In this document: positions 33,550 through 45,151 of the stretch, one piece after another
Numbering within the stretch: position 1 is the first letter of the stretch
Layout: every line of letters begins with the position of its first letter
Assembly: GCF_012999535.1 (NCBI RefSeq)
Contig: NZ_JABBWV010000006.1
Coordinates: 186,001 to 250,000 of the forward strand
Direction of reading: 5' to 3'
Length of the DNA stretch: 64,000 nucleotides
From: Microbispora sp. H11081
GTDB lineage: Bacteria; Actinomycetota; Actinomycetes; Streptosporangiales; Streptosporangiaceae
The notes under the pieces: generated by a model
The model's input: only the letters and a program-made list of their open reading frames with translations
What the model was told of the DNA's origin: nothing
Database searches by the model: none
Made by a program: the position numbers and the translations under genes

Positions 33550-36500
33550 CTAGTCGCGCAGCTGCTCGATCATCCCCTCGGCGGCGCGGATGAGCGCGGC
33601 GGCGACGGCCGGGTCGGTCACCCGGTTGGTGTCGCCGGCGAATCCGACGAACCGCTCCAGGGCCTTGATCGCGTCGTCCTTCTTGCCCTTGCCTGCCTCC
33701 TTGACCGCCTGGTCGAACTGGGCGATCAGGACGTTGCCCGTGTTGCTCGTCACGGTGCCGGCGGCCTGGAAGGCCTCGAGCAGGGCGTCCAGGTCGTCGA
33801 AGGAGGTCGTGACCGTGAAGGCCGACTTCTTCTCCGTGACGTGGCCCGCGTTGTCCTTGGCGGTCACGACCAGCTCGTTCTCGCCGAGCGGCAGCTTCCA
33901 GAGCGGGAGCGGCTCACCCGAGGTGACCTGCAGGTCGCCGATCGCGGCGGTCACGCTCGCCACCCCGGACGTGGCGTCCGTGGCGGAGAACACCGGCGTG
34001 ATCGAGGCCGAGTTGCCGTAGTCGCCGGGCTCGACACCGCTCACGGTCAGCGCGGGCGCGGCCTTGTCGATCTTCACCGTGATGGTGCCGATCTGCGAGA
34101 CGTTGCCGGCGCTGTCGGTCGCGCGGTAGCGCACCTCGGTGGTGCCCTCGGTGCTCAGCGTCACCGCGTTGTTGGCGTTCGCCCAGGTGGTGCCGCCGTT
34201 GACCGAGTACTGCCGGCTCGCCACCGTGCCGTTGTCGGTCGCGGTGACCGTCATCGACACGTTGCCCTGGTACCAGCCGTTCTCACCGGTCGGCTGGGCC
34301 GGGTTGAGGGTGGCGGTCACGGTCGGCGGGGTCTTGTCGGCGACGCCGTCGCCCACGAACGTGAACGCGTCCACGTCCACGCCGCCCGTGGAGGTGACGT
34401 AGAGCTTGCCGGTGCCGGTGGGGGCGTTCGACAGGGGGGTGGTCACCGTCTGCCAGCCCGAGCCGGCCGGGATCGCGACGGTCGCGAACGGGGTCGCGGT
34501 CGCCGAGTTCCAGCGCAGCGACAGGGTGCCCGCGCCGCTGGCCTGGGTCTTCACCGCGGTGATGCCGGCGAAGTTGACCGGGTCGTAGGCGATGTAGTCG
34601 CCCGCGTCGAACGAGGTGATCTTGCTGAGCCCAGAGGCGGTCTCGTCCTGGGTCTTGGTGACGCCCTCGCTGTCGTCCCCGTGCTCGGCCTGCATGAGCT
34701 TGGGGTTGAGGATCAAGCTCGCGTCGCTGGAGGCGCCGGGGATGCCGCTGGCGCCGTTGTCGCGGTAGCTGACCACGACGACGCCGAAGATGTTCTCGGT
34801 CACGCCGTGCTCGGGAGCGTCGGCCGGGGTCGCCCAGGTGACGGTGCAGCCCGTGCCGGTGGTGATCGGGTGGGCGTGCGTGTCGTGGCCGAGTCCGAAG
34901 GTCCACTGCACCCGGCTGCAGGTCGGGTTGTCGCCGTCCTCCGCGTCGGTCACCTTGACCGTCAGCGGAACCGCGTTGCCCCAGTCGATGAAACTGCCGT
35001 CACCGGGAGTCTCGATGCTGACCACGGGGGCGGTGTTGCCGACGGTGATCTCGATGGTGGCGAGACCGTACCTGCCGCCCGCGTCGGTGACGCGGAGCCG
35101 GGCGGTGTACTGCCCGCGCTCGGTGTAGGTGTGGGTCGCCGTCACGCCCGTGGCGTCGAAGGAGCCGTTGCCGTCGAAGTCCCACTGGTAGGTCAGGGCG
35201 CCGGGCTCGGCGTCGGTGGACTTGGCGCCGCTGAACTCGACGGTGAGCGGCGCGTTGCTGCCCGACGTCTTGTCCACGGTGATCTTCGCCTGCGGGGCCT
35301 TGTTGCCGGGCGAGTAGTCGATGCGGTAGAGGCCCGAGTCGGGGTTGGCGCGGAAGAAGCCGTCGCCGTAGTCGAGCACGTACAGCGCGCCGTCGGGGCC
35401 GAACTCGATGTCGATCGGGTTGTCCGTGATGGGCATCGCCATCTTGGTCAGCTCGGCGTTCGGCAGGAAGTGCTCGAGCTTGGTCACCGGCCCGTCGGAG
35501 CCCGTCACCGTGAACGCCGCCAGGTAGTCCTGGGAGAACTCCGCGAAGAAGAACTTCTTGTCCCAGTACGCGGGGAACTTGATGGGCGAGGGGTTGTCGG
35601 CGTCGTAGTGGTAGACCGGACCACCCATCGGGCCCTGGCCGCCCTGCGCATCCCACTCGGTCAGCCCGGCCCACTCCGCGGGCTGGTCGGCCGCGCGGTC
35701 GCCGTAGTACAGGTCGGCGGGAACCGCGGGCGGCAGTTGGGCCAGGCCGGTGTTCCACCGGGAGGTGTTCGCCGGGCCCGCGTCGCAGTCGAACCACTCA
35801 CGCGGCTTCGAGGTCGCGTAGTCCCAGTTGTTGTAGTTGAAGTTGCCGCCGTGGCAGTACGGCCAGCCGGCGTTGATCGGCTTGGTGATCGGGGTGACGT
35901 TCCACTCGACGTAGCCCATGGGGCCGCGGTCGGGGTTGGCGGCGCCGGCGTCCGGGCCGTAGTCGCCCCACGACACCGTCCCGGTCGCCGAGTCGACGTC
36001 GATGCGGAACGGGTTCCGCGCGCCCATGACGAAGATCTCCGGCCGGGTCTTGGCCGTGCCCTCCGGGAACAAGTTGCCCTCGGGGATCGTGTAGGAGCCG
36101 TCCTCCTGCACCTTGATCCGCAGGATCTTGCCGCGCAGGTCGTTGGAGTTGCCCGCGCCGCGCCGCGCGTCGAAGCCGGGGTTCATCCCGGGCGCGTCGT
36201 TGTTGGGAGCCATGCCGCTGGCGCCGGGCGTGCTGGCCGGGGTGTTGTCACCGGTGGCCAGGTAGAGGTTGCCCTCGTCGTCCCAGTCGAAGTCGCCGGC
36301 GACGTGGCAGCACTGGCCGCGGTTGGTCTCGACCTTGATGATGACCTGCTCGGTGGACAGGTCGAGCTTGTCGCCGTCCCACTTGAACCGGGAGAGCTGG
36401 TTGTAGCCCTTCCACTGGTCCCAGTAGGACTCGTCCGCGCCGGCCGGCAGGGAGTTGGGCGCCGAGCCCGTCGGAGTGGTCGCCGGATACGGCGCGGTCA

Positions 36501-36867
36501 TCGTCTTGGGCGCGTAGTAGACGTAGACCCACTTGTTGCTCGCGAAGCCGGGGTCGACGCCGATCGTCTGCAGGCCGTCTTCCGAGTTGTTGTAGACGTC
36601 GAGCTTGTTAATGATCTTGGTCACGCCGGAGGCCGGGTCGGTCATCCGGATGTCGCCGTTGCGGGCGGTGTGCAGGACACGGCCGTCCGGCAGGATCGCC
36701 ATGTCGATCGGCTCGCCGACGTCCTTGGTGAGCGTGACCTTCTCGTAGTTCTCCCAGTGCAGCGCGTCTTCGTGCGCCTGCGCGGGTGCGGCGGTGAGCG
36801 CCGCCGTGAACGGCAGTGCCAGGGCGACGGCGAGCCCGCCGATGAATGTGCGAGTAGTACGATTCAA
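33550..36867 (-). CDS. Secreted PQQ-dependent sugar dehydrogenase-like protein with PKD, CBM6-like and FIMAH domains
   Basis: A 1105-residue exported protein. It has a signal peptide to AQA (about residue 31). A glucose/sorbosone dehydrogenase-type beta-propeller (about 40-520) has GLQTIGVDPGF, GDFDWDDEGNLYLATGDN, MGARNPFRIDVD and DIEFGPDGALYVLDYGDG. A PKD domain (YQWDFDGNGSFDATG) follows, then a sugar-binding-like jelly roll (DAGDYIAYDPVNFAG), Ig-like/OmpL47-type repeats (YSVNGGTTWANANN) and a helical FIMAH domain at the C terminus. It probably oxidises or binds extracellular carbohydrate. It is second in an operon behind the TIM-barrel gene and ends at the strong terminator at 33503-33542. 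Confidence 0.85.
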   Translation of the reverse strand: MNRTTRTFIGGLAVALALPFTAALTAAPAQAHEDALHWENYEKVTLTKDVGEPIDMAILPDGRVLHTARNGDIRMTDPASGVTKIINKLDVYNNSEDGLQTIGVDPGFASNKWVYVYYAPKTMTAPYPATTPTGSAPNSLPAGADESYWDQWKGYNQLSRFKWDGDKLDLSTEQVIIKVETNRGQCCHVAGDFDWDDEGNLYLATGDNTPASTPGASGMAPNNDAPGMNPGFDARRGAGNSNDLRGKILRIKVQEDGSYTIPEGNLFPEGTAKTRPEIFVMGARNPFRIDVDSATGTVSWGDYGPDAGAANPDRGPMGYVEWNVTPITKPINAGWPYCHGGNFNYNNWDYATSKPREWFDCDAGPANTSRWNTGLAQLPPAVPADLYYGDRAADQPAEWAGLTEWDAQGGQGPMGGPVYHYDADNPSPIKFPAYWDKKFFFAEFSQDYLAAFTVTGSDGPVTKLEHFLPNAELTKMAMPITDNPIDIEFGPDGALYVLDYGDGFFRANPDSGLYRIDYSPGNKAPQAKITVDKTSGSNAPLTVEFSGAKSTDAEPGALTYQWDFDGNGSFDATGVTATHTYTERGQYTARLRVTDAGGRYGLATIEITVGNTAPVVSIETPGDGSFIDWGNAVPLTVKVTDAEDGDNPTCSRVQWTFGLGHDTHAHPITTGTGCTVTWATPADAPEHGVTENIFGVVVVSYRDNGASGIPGASSDASLILNPKLMQAEHGDDSEGVTKTQDETASGLSKITSFDAGDYIAYDPVNFAGITAVKTQASGAGTLSLRWNSATATPFATVAIPAGSGWQTVTTPLSNAPTGTGKLYVTSTGGVDVDAFTFVGDGVADKTPPTVTATLNPAQPTGENGWYQGNVSMTVTATDNGTVASRQYSVNGGTTWANANNAVTLSTEGTTEVRYRATDSAGNVSQIGTITVKIDKAAPALTVSGVEPGDYGNSASITPVFSATDATSGVASVTAAIGDLQVTSGEPLPLWKLPLGENELVVTAKDNAGHVTEKKSAFTVTTSFDDLDALLEAFQAAGTVTSNTGNVLIAQFDQAVKEAGKGKKDDAIKALERFVGFAGDTNRVTDPAVAAALIRAAEGMIEQLRD

Positions 36868-36973: not shown

Positions 36974-38122
36974 TCAGCCGCGCAGAGCGGACATGTTGTC
37001 GTAGCTCAGCGCCGCGTACTGCAGCGACTGCGCGGGGTTGGCGTTGCCGCCGGGCGCGGTGTCCTGCTCGTACATCGGGTGGTGGTAGCCCTTGGCGCCC
37101 ATGCCGCGGAAGAACTTGGCGTAGTCGATGTCGCCGGTGCCGAACGGAACCATGTCGTAGCCGTTGGCCGTGCCGGTGTTGATCTTGCCGTCCTTGGCGT
37201 GGAACAGCGGGAACCGCTTGGTCTGCGCGCGCACGACGGCGAGCGGGTCGAAGATCTGCGTCTGGGTGGACCCGTCGGGCGCGGTGAAGGTCTTGTGCTT
37301 GTACTGCGCGACGTGGGCCCAGTAGATGTCCATCTCGAGCCACACGTGCTTGGGATCGGTGATCTGGAGGAAGTACTCCAGGCGGCGGATGCCGGAGGAG
37401 CGGGTGGGCCGGCCCTGGGCGTCGAGCGGGCCGCTGTCGAGCAGGAAGCTGTAGGCCACGTCGTGGTTGTGCGTGTACAGCTTGAGGCCCGCGGCGGTGG
37501 CGAGCTCGCCCAGCGCGTTCCACTTCTCCGCGGCCCGGTCCCAGTCGGCCTTGTACGCGGTGCCGGTCGGGTCGCTGCCGGTGCCCACGTGACCCATGCC
37601 GAGGATGTTGGCGATCTCCAGGTGGAGCTTGAAGCGGTCCAGGTCGGCCTGGGTCAGCGGCCAGGAGCTGGGGATGAAGCCGTGGTTGCCCTGGGCGACC
37701 AGGCCGTTGTCGTCCAGCCAGCTGCGCAGCAGCCTGGCGCCCTCGACGTTCTCCAGGCTGGCGCCGCCCTCGGCGTTGGGGTGCTGGCTGTAGCCGGCGA
37801 ACTCGATCTGCGCGTAGCCGATCCTGGCGAGCTCCTCGAACACGGCGCGGAAGCCGGAGGGGAGGTTGCTGGACAGGGGGTCACGGGAGATGGCGTCGCG
37901 CACCGTGTAAAGGATGATGCCGCGCCGCGGCGGCGGGATGAGGAGGCCGTTCGGGCCCGGCCCCGAGGGCGCCGCCTGCGCGGCCGACTTCATCGGGCCG
38001 GCGGCCGTGATGGCGGCGGCCGCCGCCATGCCGGTCGTGGCGGCGAGCAGCTGCCGGCGGCTGAGCCCCAGCCGGCGCCCCAGCTTGCCCGCTGATTCCA
38101 TCTCTTCTTCGTACACACTCAT
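36974..38122 (-). CDS. Tat-exported sugar phosphate isomerase/epimerase-like TIM barrel
   Basis: About 382 residues. The N terminus (LGLSRRQLLAATTG) is a twin-arginine signal, so the folded protein, probably with a bound metal, is exported. The barrel is the xylose-isomerase-like AP endonuclease-2 family: IILYTVRDAI at the first strand, IEFAGYSQH, YTHNHDVAYSF, WLEMDIYWAH and FHAKDG carry the usual metal-binding His, Glu and Asp. Extracytoplasmic members are often paired with ThuA or PQQ-dehydrogenase genes for sugar breakdown, as here. I place the start at ATG 38122 behind GGAG; ATG 38101 is an alternative. Confidence 0.83.
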   Translation of the reverse strand: MSVYEEEMESAGKLGRRLGLSRRQLLAATTGMAAAAAITAAGPMKSAAQAAPSGPGPNGLLIPPPRRGIILYTVRDAISRDPLSSNLPSGFRAVFEELARIGYAQIEFAGYSQHPNAEGGASLENVEGARLLRSWLDDNGLVAQGNHGFIPSSWPLTQADLDRFKLHLEIANILGMGHVGTGSDPTGTAYKADWDRAAEKWNALGELATAAGLKLYTHNHDVAYSFLLDSGPLDAQGRPTRSSGIRRLEYFLQITDPKHVWLEMDIYWAHVAQYKHKTFTAPDGSTQTQIFDPLAVVRAQTKRFPLFHAKDGKINTGTANGYDMVPFGTGDIDYAKFFRGMGAKGYHHPMYEQDTAPGGNANPAQSLQYAALSYDNMSALRG

Positions 38123-38493
38123 CGTCTGCCAACTCCATCTGCCTGAAGAACGTGATCCCCCGATGACGCGGCTGGGCCGCTGGTGCACTTGTCCAGCAAG
38201 CTACGACACTTTTGTCGCATTGGAAAGAAGTTCGGTCGTGATCGTTTTAACTTTGTTATCACGCAGGACAAAGTGGCTGTGAGGGAGAGGGAAAGGCAGC
38301 GTGGGCGCGGTGGCGCGCGGCGGCGCTCCCTGGGTGCCCGGGCGGTCGGTGCCGGGGCTGACGCTCCAGGAGCGGCGCGATTGAACTTTCCGTAGCCTGT
38401 TAGAAACTTTTTCTTGTCAGCGACGAAAGATGCCTCTTAGTATCCGAATGTTCCGGGGTCATCCTTCATACCCGAGTTGACGGGAGAGTTACA
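38123..38493. promoter_or_regulatory. Divergent control region of the secreted-sugar operon and ebo-type operon
   Basis: 371 bases with two AT-rich islands in a GC-rich background. Island one (38205-38275) has GGAAAGAAGTTC and TTAACTTTGTTA (38247-38258). Island two (38390-38425) has the perfect dyad AGAAA-CTT-TTTCT (38402-38414). Similar elements lie upstream of the ROK gene at 46346: TCAACTTTATTA (46411-46422) and GAAA-AG-TTTC (46453-46462). These are candidate ROK operators serving both operons. Confidence 0.55.
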
Positions 38494-39636
38494 GTGCCCA
38501 TCGGTGTCTGGCTGGTCGGCGCCCGGGGGTCCGTCGCGACCACGGCGGTGGTCGGGGCGGCGGCGGTTCGGGCGGGAGCGGCTCCGCCCACCGGATGCGT
38601 CATCGAGACCACCGGTTTCCCCTCGGGCTTCGCGCCCCTGGGCGACCTCGTGTTCGGCGGTCACGACGTAGTGGGAACCCCGCTGCGCAAGAGGGCCGAG
38701 ATGCTCGCCCAGGCGGGTGTGGTCCCTCCCTTCCTGACGACCCTGCTCGCCGCGGATCTCGACGCCGCGGAGGCGGAGATCAGGCACGGCTACCTGCCCG
38801 GCGAGGAGAGCCAGGCCGACGCCGCGCGGCGGCTGGCGGGCGACATCGCGGACTTCAGGGAGCGGCGCGGCCTGTCCCATGTCGTCGTGGTGGACCTGTC
38901 GTCGACCGAGCCCCCCGCCGAGGTGCCGTACGTGAGGCTCGCCGAGCTGGAGGAGGCGCTCGCCTCCGGGCAGGACCCGCTGCCCGCCAGCTCCCTGTAC
39001 GCCTACGCGGCCTTCACCGCCGGCTGCGGCTACGTGGCCTTCACTCCTTCCGCGGGCCCGACGCCGCCCGCCCTGGACGAGCTGGCGCGGCGCAACGGCG
39101 TACCGTACGCGGGGCGTGACGGCAAGACCGGCGAGACGCTGGTCAAGAGCGCGCTCGCGCCGATGTTCGCCGGGCGGGCGCTGCGCGTGCGCTCGTGGTC
39201 GGGGCTCAACCTGCTCGGCGGCGGCGACGGCGCCACGCTGGCCGACCCGGCCGCGCGGGCGAGCAAGTCGGCGAGCAAGGCGCGTGCCGTCCCCGCGATC
39301 GTCGGCGAGGACGTCGAAGGCCTGACGCACATCGACTACGTCGCCGACCTCGGCGAGTGGAAGACCGCCTGGGACCACATCACGTTCGAGGGCTTCCTCG
39401 GCGTCCGCATGACCATGCAGTTCACCTGGCAGGGCTGCGACTCGACGCTGGCCGCCCCGCTCATCCTCGACCTCGCCCGCCTCGTCGCGCGGGCCCACGA
39501 GGCGGGCCACGGCGGCGTGCTTCCCGAGCTCGGCTACTTCTTCAAGGACCCGCTGGGCGGGGCGGGCCACGACCTGCCCACGCAGTACGCCCGGCTGGTG
39601 GACTTCGCACGGTCACTGACGGGTGAACGGCCGTGA
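38494..39636 (+). CDS. Inositol-3-phosphate synthase-like NAD-dependent cyclase
   Basis: A 380-residue protein of the myo-inositol-1-phosphate synthase family. The NAD-binding start is IGVWLVGARGSVATTAVVG. Active-site regions include FTPSAGPTPPALDEL, GRDGKTGETLVKSALAPMF (conserved lysine) and GLNLLGGGDGATLADP. The family turns glucose 6-phosphate into inositol 3-phosphate. In actinomycetes a canonical ino1 usually serves phosphatidylinositol and mycothiol elsewhere, so this copy is probably specialised. It opens a seven-gene ebo-type operon, where it takes the place of the sugar phosphate cyclase (EboD) of classical clusters. The GTG start follows GGGAGAG and the stop overlaps the next gene by GTGA. 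Confidence 0.85.
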   Translation: MPIGVWLVGARGSVATTAVVGAAAVRAGAAPPTGCVIETTGFPSGFAPLGDLVFGGHDVVGTPLRKRAEMLAQAGVVPPFLTTLLAADLDAAEAEIRHGYLPGEESQADAARRLAGDIADFRERRGLSHVVVVDLSSTEPPAEVPYVRLAELEEALASGQDPLPASSLYAYAAFTAGCGYVAFTPSAGPTPPALDELARRNGVPYAGRDGKTGETLVKSALAPMFAGRALRVRSWSGLNLLGGGDGATLADPAARASKSASKARAVPAIVGEDVEGLTHIDYVADLGEWKTAWDHITFEGFLGVRMTMQFTWQGCDSTLAAPLILDLARLVARAHEAGHGGVLPELGYFFKDPLGGAGHDLPTQYARLVDFARSLTGERP

Positions 39637-40478
39637 GGGCCTGGCTGGAGCTGGTCCGCGCGCCCGCCGCGCTGTCCGTCCCGGGTGACACGCTCGCGGG
39701 CGCGGCGGCGGCGGCGAGGCCGGCCCGGCCCGGCCTCGCCGCCGCGTCCGTGCTGCTCTACTGGGCCGGGATGGCGCTGAACGACTGGTCGGACCGGAAG
39801 CTCGACGCGAAGGAGCGCCCGGAACGGCCCATCCCCTCCGGCCGGATCAGCCCGGAGGGGGCGCTCGGCCTCGCCGTCGCCCTGACCGGCGCGGGGGTGG
39901 CCACCGCCGCGATCTCCGGCGGACGGCGCGGGTTCGCGATCGCCGGCCTGCTCGCCGGCGCGGCGTGGGCCTACGACCTGCGTCTGAAGCACACCGCGGC
40001 GGGCCCGGCCGCGATGGCGGCCTGCCGCGCGCTCGACGTGCTGCTCGGGGCGGGACCGGGGACGCGGGCGGCCGCCCCCATGGCGCTGGCCGTCGGCGCC
40101 CACACCTACGGCATCACCCTGCTCGGCCGGGCCGAGGTGGACGGCGCCACCCCCGCGACCATCGCCCAGTCGCTGACCGCGACCGGCGCGTCCGCGGCGC
40201 TGGCCGCCGTCGCCTGCCGGCACGGCGACACGGGCGGGCGGCTCGGCGCGGCCGCCATGATCGCCGGTTACCTCGCCACGGCGGGCCGGGCCCAGCTGGC
40301 GCTGCGCGCCGACCCCGACCCCGAGCAGGTGCGGCAGGCGGTGCGGATGAGCATCCTCGGCCTGATCCCGCTGCAGGCGGCGGGGGTGGCCGGACGGGGC
40401 AGGTTCGCCCAGGCGGCGGCGCTGCTGGCCGCGCTGCCGGCCGGCCGCTGGCTGTCGGCGAAGGTGGCCACGTCGTGA
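39633..40478 (+). CDS. eboC: UbiA-like prenyltransferase, EboC type
   Basis: A 281-residue polytopic membrane protein of the UbiA superfamily. The magnesium/diphosphate-binding motif NDWSDRKLD (about 50-58) is intact, followed by ERPIPSGRIS. The second aspartate region reads YDLRLKHTAAGP (about 111), the form seen in EboC proteins. It would transfer a polyprenyl chain to an acceptor; next to an inositol-phosphate synthase the acceptor may be a cyclitol. This is inference from context. It overlaps both neighbours by four bases (GTGA), indicating tight coupling. Confidence 0.8.
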   Translation: MRAWLELVRAPAALSVPGDTLAGAAAAARPARPGLAAASVLLYWAGMALNDWSDRKLDAKERPERPIPSGRISPEGALGLAVALTGAGVATAAISGGRRGFAIAGLLAGAAWAYDLRLKHTAAGPAAMAACRALDVLLGAGPGTRAAAPMALAVGAHTYGITLLGRAEVDGATPATIAQSLTATGASAALAAVACRHGDTGGRLGAAAMIAGYLATAGRAQLALRADPDPEQVRQAVRMSILGLIPLQAAGVAGRGRFAQAAALLAALPAGRWLSAKVATS

Positions 40479-41326
40479 GCGTGCTCATGAACTGGGCCTA
40501 CTGCACCAACGGCTTCCGCGACCATCCGCTCGACCAGACGCTGGAGGTGCTCGCCGACCTCGGCTACACGGGCGCGGCGGTCACCCTCGACCACGGGCAT
40601 CTCATGCCGGGGGCCTCTCCCGCGGAGGTCGGGCGGATCGCGGCGCTGGCGCGGCGGCTCGGCCTGGCCCTCGTCGTCGAGACGGGCGGCAGGTACACGC
40701 TCGACCCCCGGCGCAAGCACTTCCCCACGCTGCTGCACGACGAGGCCGAGGCCCGCGTGCGCTTCGTGGGCGAGGCCATGCGGATCGCGGCCGACCTCGG
40801 CGCCCCCGTGGTGCACCTGTGGAGCGGCATCCGGCCGCCGGAGGTGCCGGAGGCCGAGGCGTGGGACCGGCTCGTCCGCCACTGCGAGCGCCTGCTCGCC
40901 GAGGCGGACGAGGTGGGCGTCACGCTCGGGTTCGAGCCGGAGCCGGGGATGCTCGTGGCCGACCTGGCCGGATACGAACGGCTGCGCGGCCTGCTCGGCG
41001 GGCACCCGAGGTTCGGCCTCACTCTGGACATCGGGCACTGCCGCTGCCTTGAGCCGTACGACGTGCCCGAATGCGTCGAGCGGGCGCTGCCGCACCTCGT
41101 GCACGTGCAGATCGAGGACATGCGGCGGGGCGTACACGAGCATCTCGAGTTCGGCGAGGGCGAGATCGACTTCCCGCCCGCGCTCGCCGCGCTCGACGGC
41201 TTCGGCGGGCTGGTCGCCGTCGAACTGGCCAGGCACAGCCATGCGGCGCCCGACGTGGCGCGAAGGTCGATCGAATTCCTGAGGAGGGCACATGACCTGG
41301 CTGGCGCGGGCCGTAGCCGACGTTGA
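40475..41326 (+). CDS. Sugar phosphate isomerase/epimerase-fold protein of the ebo-type operon
   Basis: A 283-residue cytoplasmic TIM barrel (xylose-isomerase-like). It opens SVLMNWAYCTNGFRDH, has FEPEPGMLVADL, LTLDIGHCRCLEP and HVQIEDMRRGVHEHL, which supply metal-binding Glu, Asp, His and Glu. The AYCTN opening and FEPEPG also occur in EboE three genes on, so the two are probably paralogues. It likely isomerises or epimerises a sugar or cyclitol intermediate. The 3' end overlaps eboA by 35 bases. It has no counterpart in the minimal ebo set that I know. Confidence 0.8.
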   Translation: MSVLMNWAYCTNGFRDHPLDQTLEVLADLGYTGAAVTLDHGHLMPGASPAEVGRIAALARRLGLALVVETGGRYTLDPRRKHFPTLLHDEAEARVRFVGEAMRIAADLGAPVVHLWSGIRPPEVPEAEAWDRLVRHCERLLAEADEVGVTLGFEPEPGMLVADLAGYERLRGLLGGHPRFGLTLDIGHCRCLEPYDVPECVERALPHLVHVQIEDMRRGVHEHLEFGEGEIDFPPALAALDGFGGLVAVELARHSHAAPDVARRSIEFLRRAHDLAGAGRSRR

Positions 41327-41795
41327 GCGCGACCCCGAGACCGTCTACGCGCTGTTCCCGCGGGCCGTGCGCGAGGGTGGTCCCGGCGCGCGCGCGGAGC
41401 TGCTGAGAGCGCTCACAACGGCCCTGCCCGACCCGGTGGCGGCCATCACGAAGCTCTACTGGCAGGGCGACGCCGGGGAGCGGCTGGAGATCCTCGAGGC
41501 GCTCGCGCGGCTCGACCTCGGCCCTGAGGCTCTCCCGCTCGTCCACGACGCCCTGCGCACCAACGACACCCGGCTGGTCGCCGCCGCGCTCGGCGCGTAC
41601 GGCTCGACCTGGCTGGACGACCACGCCTTCCGCCAGGGCGTGCTCAAGTGTGTCTTCATGTCCGTTCCGCTGGCGTCCGTCGAGGGCCTCGACCGGCGTA
41701 TCGACGACGAACTGCGGCGCATGCTCGCCGACTTCGCCGCCGAGCGCCGCGCGGCCGGACGGCCCGTACCCCCCGACGTTCTCGAGAGGCTCTGA
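41292..41795 (+). CDS. eboA: EboA domain protein
   Basis: A 167-residue soluble, largely helical protein (HEAT-like short repeats: LEILEALARLDLGPEALPL and RLVAAALGAYGSTWL). The conserved GVLKCVFMSVPLASVEGLDRR (in parts) is the EboA signature. EboA proteins occur only in ebo clusters and have no known activity; a scaffold or carrier role has been proposed. GAGGAGGG eight bases before the ATG supports the start, which lies inside the preceding gene. Confidence 0.8.
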   Translation: MTWLARAVADVERDPETVYALFPRAVREGGPGARAELLRALTTALPDPVAAITKLYWQGDAGERLEILEALARLDLGPEALPLVHDALRTNDTRLVAAALGAYGSTWLDDHAFRQGVLKCVFMSVPLASVEGLDRRIDDELRRMLADFAAERRAAGRPVPPDVLERL

Positions 41796-41801
41796 TTCCG
41801 G

Positions 41802-42644
41802 ATGAGGATCTTCGACCCCCACGTCCACATGACGTCCCGCACGACGGACGACTACGAGCGCATGTACGCCGCCGGGGTCCGCGCCGTCGTGGAGCCCGCC
41901 TTCTGGCTCGGCCAGCCGCGCACGAACGTCGGCAGCTTCCTCGACTACTTCGACGCGCTGCTGGGCTGGGAGCCGTACCGGGCCGCGCAGTACGGCATCC
42001 GCCACCACTGCACGCTCGCGCTCAACCCCAAGGAGGCCAACGACCCGCGCTGCGCGGGCGTGCTGGACGAGCTGCCCCGCTACCTGCTGAAGGACTCCGT
42101 CGTGGCGGTCGGCGAGGTGGGTTACGACTCGGTGACGCCGGAGGAGGACCGCGTCTTCGAGGCCCAGCTCGCGCTCGCCGAGGAGCACGGCCTGCCGGTG
42201 CTGGTGCACACGCCGCACCGCGACAAGGCCGCGGGGACCCGCCGCACGCTCGACGTGGTCAAGGGCATGGACCCGGGCAAGGTGCTCGTCGACCACCTCA
42301 ACGAGCTCACCGTCGGCATGGTCCGCGACGCCGGGTGCTGGGCGGGCTTCTCGATCTACCCGGACACCAAGATGGACCCGGACCGCATGGTGGCGATACT
42401 CAAGGAGTACGGCACCGAGCGGATGATCGTTAACTCCGCCGCCGACTGGGGACGCAGCGACGTGCTCAAGACCCGGCAGGTCGGCGATGCCATGCTCGCG
42501 GCCGGGTTCTCCGACGACGACGTCGACCAGGTGCTGTGGCGCAACCCGGTCGCCTTCTACGGCCAGAGCGGGCGGCTGCGCCTGGACGACGTCGAGTCCG
42601 GCGGCGACTTCGAGGGCAACACGATCCTGCGCGGGACGCGCTGA
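41802..42644 (+). CDS. eboB: TatD-family metal-dependent hydrolase, EboB type
   Basis: A 280-residue amidohydrolase-fold protein. It has the metal motif DPHVHM (residues 4-9), GEVGYDS with the bridging glutamate (about 106), LVHTPHRDK, VDHLNE and NSAADWG supplying the remaining His and Asp ligands. All expected ligands are present, so it should be an active hydrolase, of unknown substrate. It lies six bases after eboA and two before eboE. Confidence 0.85.
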   Translation: MRIFDPHVHMTSRTTDDYERMYAAGVRAVVEPAFWLGQPRTNVGSFLDYFDALLGWEPYRAAQYGIRHHCTLALNPKEANDPRCAGVLDELPRYLLKDSVVAVGEVGYDSVTPEEDRVFEAQLALAEEHGLPVLVHTPHRDKAAGTRRTLDVVKGMDPGKVLVDHLNELTVGMVRDAGCWAGFSIYPDTKMDPDRMVAILKEYGTERMIVNSAADWGRSDVLKTRQVGDAMLAAGFSDDDVDQVLWRNPVAFYGQSGRLRLDDVESGGDFEGNTILRGTR

Positions 42645-42646
42645 CC

Positions 42647-43765
42647 ATGCGCCTGCTGCATCCCTCCGGTGCCGTGGTCCACCTGGCCTACTGCACCAAC
42701 GTCCATCCGGCCGAGGACCTCGAAGGCATCCACGGGCAGCTGTCCGGGGTCGCGGCCCGGGTGCGGGAGCTGACCGGCGCGCCGGTCCTCGGCCTCGGGC
42801 TGTGGCTGTCGTCGCGCGCCGCGCGGGCGCTGCGGGCCGACCCCGCCGAGCTGGCCCGGCTGCGCGCCCGGCTGGACGAGCTGGGGCTGGAGGTCGTCAC
42901 CCTCAACGGATTCCCCTACCAGGGCTTCCACGACCAGGTCGTCAAGCTCCGGGTGTACCGGCCCGACTGGGCCGGGACCGAACGGCTCGCCTACACCCTC
43001 GACCTGGCCGAGATCCTCACCGCGCTGCTGCCCGACGACGTTCAGGAGGGCTCGATCTCGACGCTGCCCCTCGCCTGGCGCACGGAGTGGACGCCGGACA
43101 AGGCCGCGGCCGTCGACGCCAACCTCGACGCGCTCGCCCGCGGCCTGCGGGCGCTGGCGGAGCGCACGGGGAAGACGATCCGCGTCGGCTTCGAGCCGGA
43201 ACCGGGCTGCGTCGTGGAGACCACCCCGCAGGCCGTCGCGCTGCTCGGCCGGGCCGACCCTGAGTATCTCGGCGTCTGCCTGGACGCCTGCCACCTGGCA
43301 GTAGGCCTCGAGGAGCCCGCCGACGCCGCCGCGCTTGGGCTGCCGATCGTGAAGCTCCAGGTGTCGGCCGCCGTCGAGGCGCCGCCGGGCGCCCAGGCCG
43401 CTCTGGCGGCGTACGAGGAGGAGCGGTACCTCCACCAGACCCGCTGCGCGGCCGGGTACGCGGACGACCTGCCCGAGGCGCTGGCCGGGGGACTCCCGGC
43501 GGACCTGCCGTGGCGCACGCACTTCCACATGCCGCTGCACGCCCCGGCGCCGCCGCCGCTCACCACGACGGCTCCGTACCTGGAGGACCTGCTGGGACGG
43601 ATCCTGACCCCGGACGGGCGGACCGCGCCCCTCACGCGGCACCTCGAGGTGGAGACCTACACCTGGAGCGTGCTGCCCGGCGAGGTCGACGTCGCCGAGG
43701 GCGTCGCGGCCGAGCTGGACTGGACCCGGCGGCGGCTCGCCGCCCTCGGACTTAAGGAGATCTGA
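42647..43765 (+). CDS. eboE: EboE metabolite traffic protein (TIM barrel)
   Basis: A 372-residue protein, longer than the typical sugar isomerase. It opens RLLHPSGAVVHLAYCTNVHPAEDLEG (AYCTNVHPAED is the EboE signature), then LNGFPYQGFH, GSISTLPLAWR, FEPEPGCVVET, LDACHLAVG and the late FHMPLHAP and LEVETYTW motifs. These carry the metal-binding His/Glu set. The family name reflects the export defect of cyanobacterial ebo mutants, not a known reaction. It is translationally coupled on both sides. Confidence 0.85.
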   Translation: MRLLHPSGAVVHLAYCTNVHPAEDLEGIHGQLSGVAARVRELTGAPVLGLGLWLSSRAARALRADPAELARLRARLDELGLEVVTLNGFPYQGFHDQVVKLRVYRPDWAGTERLAYTLDLAEILTALLPDDVQEGSISTLPLAWRTEWTPDKAAAVDANLDALARGLRALAERTGKTIRVGFEPEPGCVVETTPQAVALLGRADPEYLGVCLDACHLAVGLEEPADAAALGLPIVKLQVSAAVEAPPGAQAALAAYEEERYLHQTRCAAGYADDLPEALAGGLPADLPWRTHFHMPLHAPAPPPLTTTAPYLEDLLGRILTPDGRTAPLTRHLEVETYTWSVLPGEVDVAEGVAAELDWTRRRLAALGLKEI

Positions 43766-45090
43766 TGGCGCCCGTCGTCGTCGTGAACGTCGTCGGCCTG
43801 ACCCCGCGCCTGCTGGCGCACATGCCGAACGTGGCCAAGGTGGGGACCGCCGCGTCCCTGAAACCCGTACTGCCCGCCGTGACGTGCTCTATGCAGGCCA
43901 CGCTGCTGACCGGCTCGATGCCGCGCGACCACGGCATCGTGGGCAACGGCTGGTACTTCAGGGACCTGGGCGAGGTCTTCCTGTGGCGGCAGCACAACCG
44001 GCTCATCCAGGGCGAGCAGCTGTGGGACGCGGTGCCGGGGACCCGCACGGCCAACGTCTGCTGGTGGTACGCCATGGGCGGCACCAGCGACTTCATCGTC
44101 ACCCCGCGCCCGATCTACTACGCCGACGGGCGCAAGGAGCCCGACTGCTACACCAGGCCGCCGTCCCTGCGCGACGACCTGGTGGCCGAGCTGGGCGAGT
44201 TCCCGCTGTTCACCTACTGGGGGCCGAACGCGGGCATCACCTCGTCCAAGTGGATCATCGCGGCGGCCCGGCGGATCCTCGCCAAGGAGCGGCCCGACCT
44301 GCTCATGGTCTACATCCCGCACCTCGACTACGACCTGCAGCGCTTCGGGCCGGACGCGCCGCAGGCCGTCGCGGCGGCCCGGGAGGTCGACGCCGCGCTC
44401 GCGCCGCTGCTGCGTGAGGACGCCACGGTGGTCGTGCTGTCGGAGTACGGCATCACCAACGCGTCCCGCCCGGTCGACATCAACCGGGCGCTGCGCAGGG
44501 CCGGGCTGCTCGAGGTCTACACCCAGGACGGCATGGAGTATCTCGACCCCTGGGCCTCGCGGGCCTTCGCGGTCGCCGACCACCAGGTCGCCCATGTCTA
44601 CGTCAACGACTCGGCCGACCTGCCGCGCGTACGCGACGTCGTGGCGGAACTGCCGGGCGTGGACGAGGTCCTGGGCCAGGAGGGCAAGGCGAGGTACGGC
44701 CTCGACCACGAGCGGGCCGGCGACCTGGTCGCCGTGGCGGAGCCGGACGCCTGGTTCACGTACTACTACTGGCTGTCCGGCGACCGGGCGCCCGACTTCG
44801 CGAAGCTCGTGGAGATCCACCGCAAGCCCGGCTACGACCCGGCTGAGCTGTTCATGGATCCCGAAGACCCGCTCGTGAAGCTGCGGGCCGGCACCGCGCT
44901 CGCCCGCAAGAAGCTGGGCTTCCGCTACAGCATGTCCGTGGTGCCGCTCGACCCCGCCCCGGTGCGCGGCAGCCACGGCCGCCTGCCCGACTCCACGGCG
45001 GACGGGCCGGTGCTGCTGGGCCCGTTCGACAAGGACGCCTACGCGGCGACCGAGGTGAAGGGCCTGCTCACGCAGTTGCTGAAGCGCTGA
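43765..45090 (+). CDS. eboF: EboF-like nucleotide pyrophosphatase/phosphodiesterase (alkaline phosphatase superfamily)
   Basis: A 441-residue metal-dependent phosphoesterase. The nucleophile is the threonine of LPAVTCSMQATLLTG (about 34-48), followed by MPRDHGIVGNGWYF. Further metal ligands lie in YIPHLDYDLQRFGPDA, VLSEYGITN and ADHQVAHVYV. No signal peptide is visible, so it acts in the cytoplasm. It would cleave a phosphodiester or phosphate monoester on the pathway intermediate. Its ATG overlaps the eboE stop (TGATG). It is the last gene of the operon, ending before the hairpins at 45103-45151. Confidence 0.82.
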   Translation: MAPVVVVNVVGLTPRLLAHMPNVAKVGTAASLKPVLPAVTCSMQATLLTGSMPRDHGIVGNGWYFRDLGEVFLWRQHNRLIQGEQLWDAVPGTRTANVCWWYAMGGTSDFIVTPRPIYYADGRKEPDCYTRPPSLRDDLVAELGEFPLFTYWGPNAGITSSKWIIAAARRILAKERPDLLMVYIPHLDYDLQRFGPDAPQAVAAAREVDAALAPLLREDATVVVLSEYGITNASRPVDINRALRRAGLLEVYTQDGMEYLDPWASRAFAVADHQVAHVYVNDSADLPRVRDVVAELPGVDEVLGQEGKARYGLDHERAGDLVAVAEPDAWFTYYYWLSGDRAPDFAKLVEIHRKPGYDPAELFMDPEDPLVKLRAGTALARKKLGFRYSMSVVPLDPAPVRGSHGRLPDSTADGPVLLGPFDKDAYAATEVKGLLTQLLKR

Positions 45091-45102: not shown

Positions 45103-45151
45103 GGCCGGCCGCCGTCCCGTGGGGGCGGCGGCCGGCCCGCGTTGGCGGGCC
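45103..45151. terminator. Double hairpin terminator between the ebo-type operon and the ROK gene
   Basis: GGCCGGCCGCC (45103-45113) pairs with GGCGGCCGGCC (45127-45137), extended inward by G-C, T-G and CCC/GGG. An overlapping alternative, GGCCCGC-GTTG-GCGGGCC, lies at 45134-45151. It serves two convergent genes. Confidence 0.8.

Follow-up and report, generated by a model that had tools for sequence, protein, structure and literature searches.

The ebo operon (eboABCDEF) has been described in cyanobacteria, Bacteroidetes, pseudomonads and the plastids of eustigmatophyte algae (PMC5133447, PMC6282210), and the study of ebo mutants has established that it is needed for the export of scytonemin precursors in Nostoc (PMC6282210). 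Sedoheptulose-7-phosphate is the published proposal for the substrate of its cyclase, EboD. UbiA-297, an EboC protein of marine Flavobacteria, farnesylates quinolines in vitro, and the passages of that report dealing with ebo neighbourhoods draw the same prenyltransferase group for the actinomycete genus Saccharomonospora as well, give EboD as the cyclase and make no mention of a myo-inositol phosphate synthase (MIPS) (PMC9235831). In Streptomyces coelicolor, SCO3242 and SCO3243 are listed in the calcium-dependent antibiotic (CDA) cluster (PMC3610822); SCO3243 is annotated as a myo-inositol phosphate synthase and SCO3242 gives its name to a prenyltransferase family, and no functional account of the pair was found in the open-access literature. 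Here we describe a seven-gene operon on the + strand of a 64,000-nucleotide stretch of Microbispora sp. H11081 (NZ_JABBWV010000006.1, positions 186,001 to 250,000; hereafter the window), in which EboA, EboB, an EboC-like protein of the SCO3242 subfamily, EboE and EboF are all encoded side by side, whereas EboD is absent from both cluster and genome and a MIPS together with an extra TIM barrel (termed ISO) is present instead. MIPS and ISO thus occupy the slot that is filled by EboD in other ebo clusters. No earlier report of MIPS in ebo clusters was found in the open-access literature; the automatic names assigned by NCBI already place these operon genes side by side.

The genes span positions 38494-45090 in the order MIPS, EboC, ISO, EboA, EboB, EboE, EboF (Table 1). 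Adjacent genes overlap by 1-35 bp or are separated by a few bp, and a hairpin that is the probable end of the transcript lies beyond the EboF stop codon, an arrangement compatible with one operon. EboA and EboE exceed the cut-offs of their curated models (NF035938 EboA_domain, 153 bits against 50; NF035939 TIM_EboE, 383 bits against 250); failure of these two assignments in profile searches had been named in advance as a refuting result. EboC contains the UbiA Pfam domain with a conserved NDxxDxxxD motif, and scores 337 bits with NF045897 (SCO3242_trans; cut-off 260) but 132 bits with the EboC equivalog model NF035940 (cut-off 250), and is thus assigned to a sister subfamily of EboC; SCO3242/SCO3243 may itself represent an ebo variant. 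EboB (Pfam TatD, PF01026) and EboF (Pfam Phosphodiest, PF01663, 200 bits; nearest solved structure, phosphonoacetate hydrolase 3szy) have no curated model and were assigned by cross-phylum profiles and synteny, both of which they have in common with EboD-type clusters (346-443 and 585-682 bits, respectively, in seven such clusters on plasmids). The predicted structure of EboA is all-helical, with a pLDDT (predicted local distance difference test) score of 97, and a fold search with it returned no significant match in the PDB. The original prediction, made from the letters of the window alone, had called seven overlapping or nearly touching genes at these exact coordinates an ebo-type operon with a non-homologous NAD-dependent cyclase in the role of EboD, and each of these elements is borne out by the Pfam and NCBIfam matches and by the genome-wide lack of eboD described below. 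A second, partial EboE-like gene lies near a contig end of the source genome (G000:C5:186999-187664; L033), with no other ebo genes within the stretch examined around it.

Both MIPS domains were detected in the operon cyclase above the Pfam cut-offs (PF07994 and PF01658; 151 and 111 bits). Its closest solved relative is the Archaeoglobus fulgidus enzyme (Af mIPS, 1u1i; E 3e-61), which was characterised as a stand-alone inositol-1-phosphate synthase and not as a member of an ebo cluster; the mycobacterial enzyme is much further removed. Ten positions of Af mIPS, which we take to be catalytic residues, were compared across 38 ebo-MIPS proteins: positions 225, 255, 261, 274, 278, 306, 332 and 367, including the four lysines (274, 278, 306, 367) that the operon protein shares, are invariant in all 38, position 257 is kept in 37, and position 310 is occupied by Asp in 33 proteins and by Asn in five. 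The active-site positions compared are therefore nearly all conserved, and the operon MIPS is a putative inositol-1-phosphate synthase. It is not the only inositol synthase of the organism, since a separate, canonical ino1 is encoded elsewhere in the source genome; a sole MIPS had been named beforehand as the result that would count against an ebo role. The sole dehydroquinate (DHQ) synthase of the source genome is aroB, located in a row of aro genes and scoring 158 bits with an EboD profile built from seven EboD proteins that each score >600 bits, and the genome thus lacks eboD.

A survey of 296 Actinomycetota genomes, which like those of planctomycetes and proteobacteria was anchored on EboE and not on MIPS, detected EboE above the cut-off in 13 genomes. 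Twelve loci besides that of the window carry the identical seven genes in the identical order, indicating that the arrangement did not arise by chance. One further ebo cluster (L021) has no adjacent MIPS, but its genome contains a complete MIPS-type cluster, and another (L034) is degenerate. All 14 actinobacterial genomes with an EboE match encode at least one MIPS and 13 encode two copies; the exception is G268, with a single MIPS in the whole genome. EboD is absent from all 14, and a hidden EboD elsewhere in these genomes was rejected as a candidate, the best additional sugar phosphate cyclase (SPC) reaching 193 bits against >600.

The MIPS-type variant recurs outside Actinomycetota, in haloarchaea (EboB, ISO, EboC, a second ISO, MIPS and EboF, without EboA and EboE), in Gemmatimonadota and in one gammaproteobacterial metagenome-assembled genome (MAG), where about 12 kb of one contig separate MIPS from ISO. 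EboD without MIPS and ISO was found in clusters of Azospirillum, Ketogulonicigenium, Salipiger, Roseivivax, Mycetohabitans, Deinococcus and Aureibacter, and in two further Pseudomonadota and six Planctomycetota genomes. Of 58 ebo regions containing three or more core genes each (the window uncounted, one Gemmatirosa locus counted twice), MIPS and ISO occur without EboD in 38, a count biased by the fact that MIPS-type sets were partly found via MIPS itself; EboD occurs without MIPS or ISO in 15, no region carries both EboD and MIPS, and five have no cyclase (two with ISO only, three with none of MIPS, ISO and EboD). ISO thus accompanies MIPS in all 38 MIPS-type regions and is missing from all 15 EboD-type ones. 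The original idea of a non-homologous replacement of the cyclase therefore stands, with the amendment that the unit exchanged is MIPS plus ISO rather than MIPS alone; its description as an actinomycete variant fits the 12 other actinobacterial loci and is too narrow for the haloarchaeal, Gemmatimonadota and gammaproteobacterial sets.

In Planctomycetota, EboE exceeds its cut-off in 155 of 246 genomes, where it frequently occurs on its own, and ebo-related functions may be near-core in this phylum. A whole-genome search for both cyclases in 34 of the 155 identified EboD in 16, an ebo-type MIPS in 16, neither in two and both intact in none (Fisher exact p 7e-8, or 2e-6 if the remnant in G853 is counted as both), values that overstate the case because the genomes are not independent lineages and clade structure may inflate the significance. 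The remnant is a broken MIPS in an EboD-containing planctomycete (G853:C3:127153-127978), possibly the trace of a past swap. The MIPS-type variant probably extends to planctomycetes. Published work reports two planctomycetes without eboD, species outside the genomes examined here; if the swap preserves function, MIPS may explain their missing cyclase.

Phylogenetic trees of EboF, of EboB and of the two joined each require at least four changes between the MIPS-type and EboD-type states, forced by well-supported branches. EboB and EboF from the MIPS-type sets of Gemmatimonadota and the gammaproteobacterial MAG are nested within EboD-type groups. The possibility that the MIPS-type state arose only once was considered and finds no support in any of the three trees. 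Several exchanges of the cyclase have thus taken place alongside the same partner enzymes, and this speaks for functional equivalence. Clusters moved horizontally, as a whole or in part, can add to such a tree pattern. Because the two cyclase solutions are mutually exclusive and have been exchanged several times, EboD and MIPS plus ISO probably serve the same step.

The AlphaFold2 (AF2) model of ISO (pLDDT 96.1), for which the underlying alignment leaves out rows from plasmid records, matches a D-tagatose 3-epimerase-like protein and UlaE and resembles sugar 3-epimerases; the fold search gives Z scores of 27-32 for epimerase, isomerase and xylose-isomerase members alike, so that the reaction is not separated by fold. 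An entry named 'Art22' is also among the matches, and no paper was traced for it. ISO also adjoins MIPS where no ebo genes are present, in loci of planctomycetes and deltaproteobacteria, and likewise in a distinct YcaO-containing cluster; since the pairing thus extends beyond ebo clusters, ISO probably acts on the product of MIPS. In Catenulispora (L111:10917-13682), ISO and EboA read as a single open frame, matching barrel-EboA hybrid proteins already noted in print for Actinobacteria.

Taken together, we consider it likely that the operon represents a MIPS-type ebo cassette, in which MIPS and ISO, mutually exclusive with EboD and repeatedly exchanged with it, lead to a prenylated cyclitol. 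Judging from the enzyme families, MIPS would convert glucose-6-phosphate to inositol phosphate, and ISO, a putative metal-dependent isomerase, epimerase or dehydratase, would turn the resulting cyclitol into the compound that EboD yields directly. EboC would then add a polyprenyl chain within the membrane, trimming or rearrangement of the phosphate and ring groups may fall to EboF, EboB and EboE, and EboA may serve as a helical scaffold or adaptor. An inositol-like product, prenylated by EboC into a membrane-associated metabolite, was part of the original prediction as well and would likewise follow from the enzyme families. The prenylated cyclitol could be a carrier or cofactor bound to the membrane, with which secondary metabolites are moved or modified outside the cytoplasm; such a role is suggested, by analogy, by the Nostoc ebo mutants (PMC6282210) and by the biosynthetic neighbours of the operon on Streptomyces plasmids listed below. 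It is conceivable, though we hold it at somewhat under an even chance, that EboD and MIPS plus ISO are interchangeable, non-homologous ring modules and that EboD forms, from a hexose phosphate, the same six-carbon (C6) cyclitol as MIPS and ISO do in two steps. The swap questions the sedoheptulose-7-phosphate proposal for EboD, and if it is functionally equivalent, a hexose phosphate is the better guess. The recurring exchange of two unrelated cyclases limits the possible ebo products and points to a shared chemistry; if MIPS plus ISO can replace EboD, a prenylated cyclitol derived from inositol is very likely what the ebo pathway makes. Ebo genes occur widely, and through the MIPS-type variant haloarchaea, too, apparently possess an ebo pathway.

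Several observations, beyond the biased region count and the inflated p values, weigh against this interpretation. Three ebo regions have none of MIPS, ISO and EboD, and two planctomycete genomes have EboE and neither cyclase. Among control Planctomycetota, MIPS was found in 3/20 genomes without an EboE hit and in 23/25 with a weak hit only, which, where checkable (Zavarzinella, L072), is an ISO-type barrel adjoining MIPS; EboE is thus no prerequisite for MIPS in this phylum. Most EboE genes of planctomycetes are solitary, so that the pathway there may be incomplete. In addition, the actinobacterial ISO has Gln at residue 209 (window 40484-41323), which lines up with a metal-ligand His in sugar epimerases; members from haloarchaea, planctomycetes and elsewhere have His there.

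Among the alternatives to a MIPS-type cassette serving the EboD step, the one that survives best, though we regard it as unlikely, is that MIPS and EboD differ in their job, so that the MIPS-type operon yields another final molecule, such as an inositol-based lipid, and the pathway has diverged rather than had one step replaced. MIPS keeps the phosphate and normally forms a C6 ring, published reasoning assigns a seven-carbon (C7) substrate to EboD, an additional barrel accompanies MIPS, and the actinobacterial EboC falls into its own family; divergence is, however, difficult to reconcile with the repeated exchange in the EboB and EboF trees, which contain no single MIPS-type clade, and with the placement of the Gemmatimonadota and gammaproteobacterial proteins inside EboD-type groups. 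It is more doubtful still that the operon enzyme makes an unusual ring and that the cyclitol of the pathway is not an inositol: one characterised MIPS homologue, the MIPS-like five-membered-cyclitol-phosphate synthase 6k96, does form a different ring, but the ebo MIPS is far nearer to Af mIPS than to this enzyme (E 2e-15) and keeps the mIPS active-site positions. That the operon MIPS is a spare, orphan ino1 for general inositol phosphate supply, its position being meaningless, is very improbable and was rejected, because, although it is a MIPS-family protein with its catalytic residues in place and the only MIPS in G268, a second copy exists in the other 13 genomes, its place in the operon is fixed across Actinomycetota, it excludes EboD, and it scores 38.6 bits with the mycothiol_INO1 model TIGR03450 (cut-off 638).

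Table 1. Features of the MIPS-type ebo operon and its flanks (positions in the window)
Feature	Position	Strand	Matches and remarks
MIPS-like cyclase, archaeal-type inositol-1-phosphate synthase family	38494..39636	+	PF07994, PF01658; A. fulgidus 1u1i; catalytic residues kept
EboC-like UbiA-superfamily prenyltransferase, SCO3242 family	39633..40478	+	NF045897; NDxxDxxxD motif kept
ISO, extra xylose-isomerase/3-epimerase-like TIM barrel	40475..41326 (GTG start 40475 or 40481)	+	PF01261; AF2; fold matches
EboA	41292..41795	+	NF035938; all-helical model
EboB, TatD-like metal-dependent hydrolase	41802..42644	+	PF01026; profile and synteny; nearest solved AF_1765, 3guw
EboE, TIM barrel	42641..43765 (likely ATG start 42647)	+	NF035939
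EboF, type I phosphodiesterase / nucleotide pyrophosphatase family	43765..45090	+	PF01663; nearest solved 3szy
Strong inverted repeat past final stop	45103..45137		16-nt arms, 94% complementary, 3-nt spacer; probable transcript end
Divergent flank gene, xylose-isomerase-like TIM barrel	36974..38188	-	PF01261; twin-arginine-type signal (by sequence); non-core
Flank gene, secreted glucose/sorbosone-dehydrogenase-like, PKD + CBM6 + FIMAH domains	33550..36867	-	PF07995 and others; non-core

Two genes on the - strand flank the operon in the window. The Pfam domain AP_endonuc_2 (PF01261) is matched twice, by ISO and by the flanking barrel. Profile matches to this barrel adjoin several other MIPS-type clusters, as do matches to the glucose/sorbosone-dehydrogenase-like gene, for which haloarchaeal clusters are included; both types recur next to MIPS-type ebo genes in L022, L024-L026, L030, L032 and L037, including in a haloarchaeon.

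On Streptomyces plasmids (L124, L125, L126, L041), the operon adjoins genes for non-ribosomal peptide synthetases (NRPS), type II polyketide synthases (PKS), aromatic prenyltransferases, ScyD/ScyE-family proteins or multicopper oxidases. Reduced sets also occur on such plasmids, consisting of a lone EboE within a type II PKS cluster (L127) or of EboB-EboE-EboF only (L128 and L129). A different cluster on Roseomonas and Hymenobacter plasmids (L040:9851-20722; L042:9608-18309) combines MIPS and ISO with YcaO, a Gfo/Idh oxidoreductase and a PIG-L deacetylase, the Roseomonas version additionally containing a GT4 glycosyltransferase, and may represent an amino- or thio-cyclitol pathway of a new type. 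A Methylobacterium locus (L039), the record of which is unannotated, has equal spacing between MIPS and ISO.

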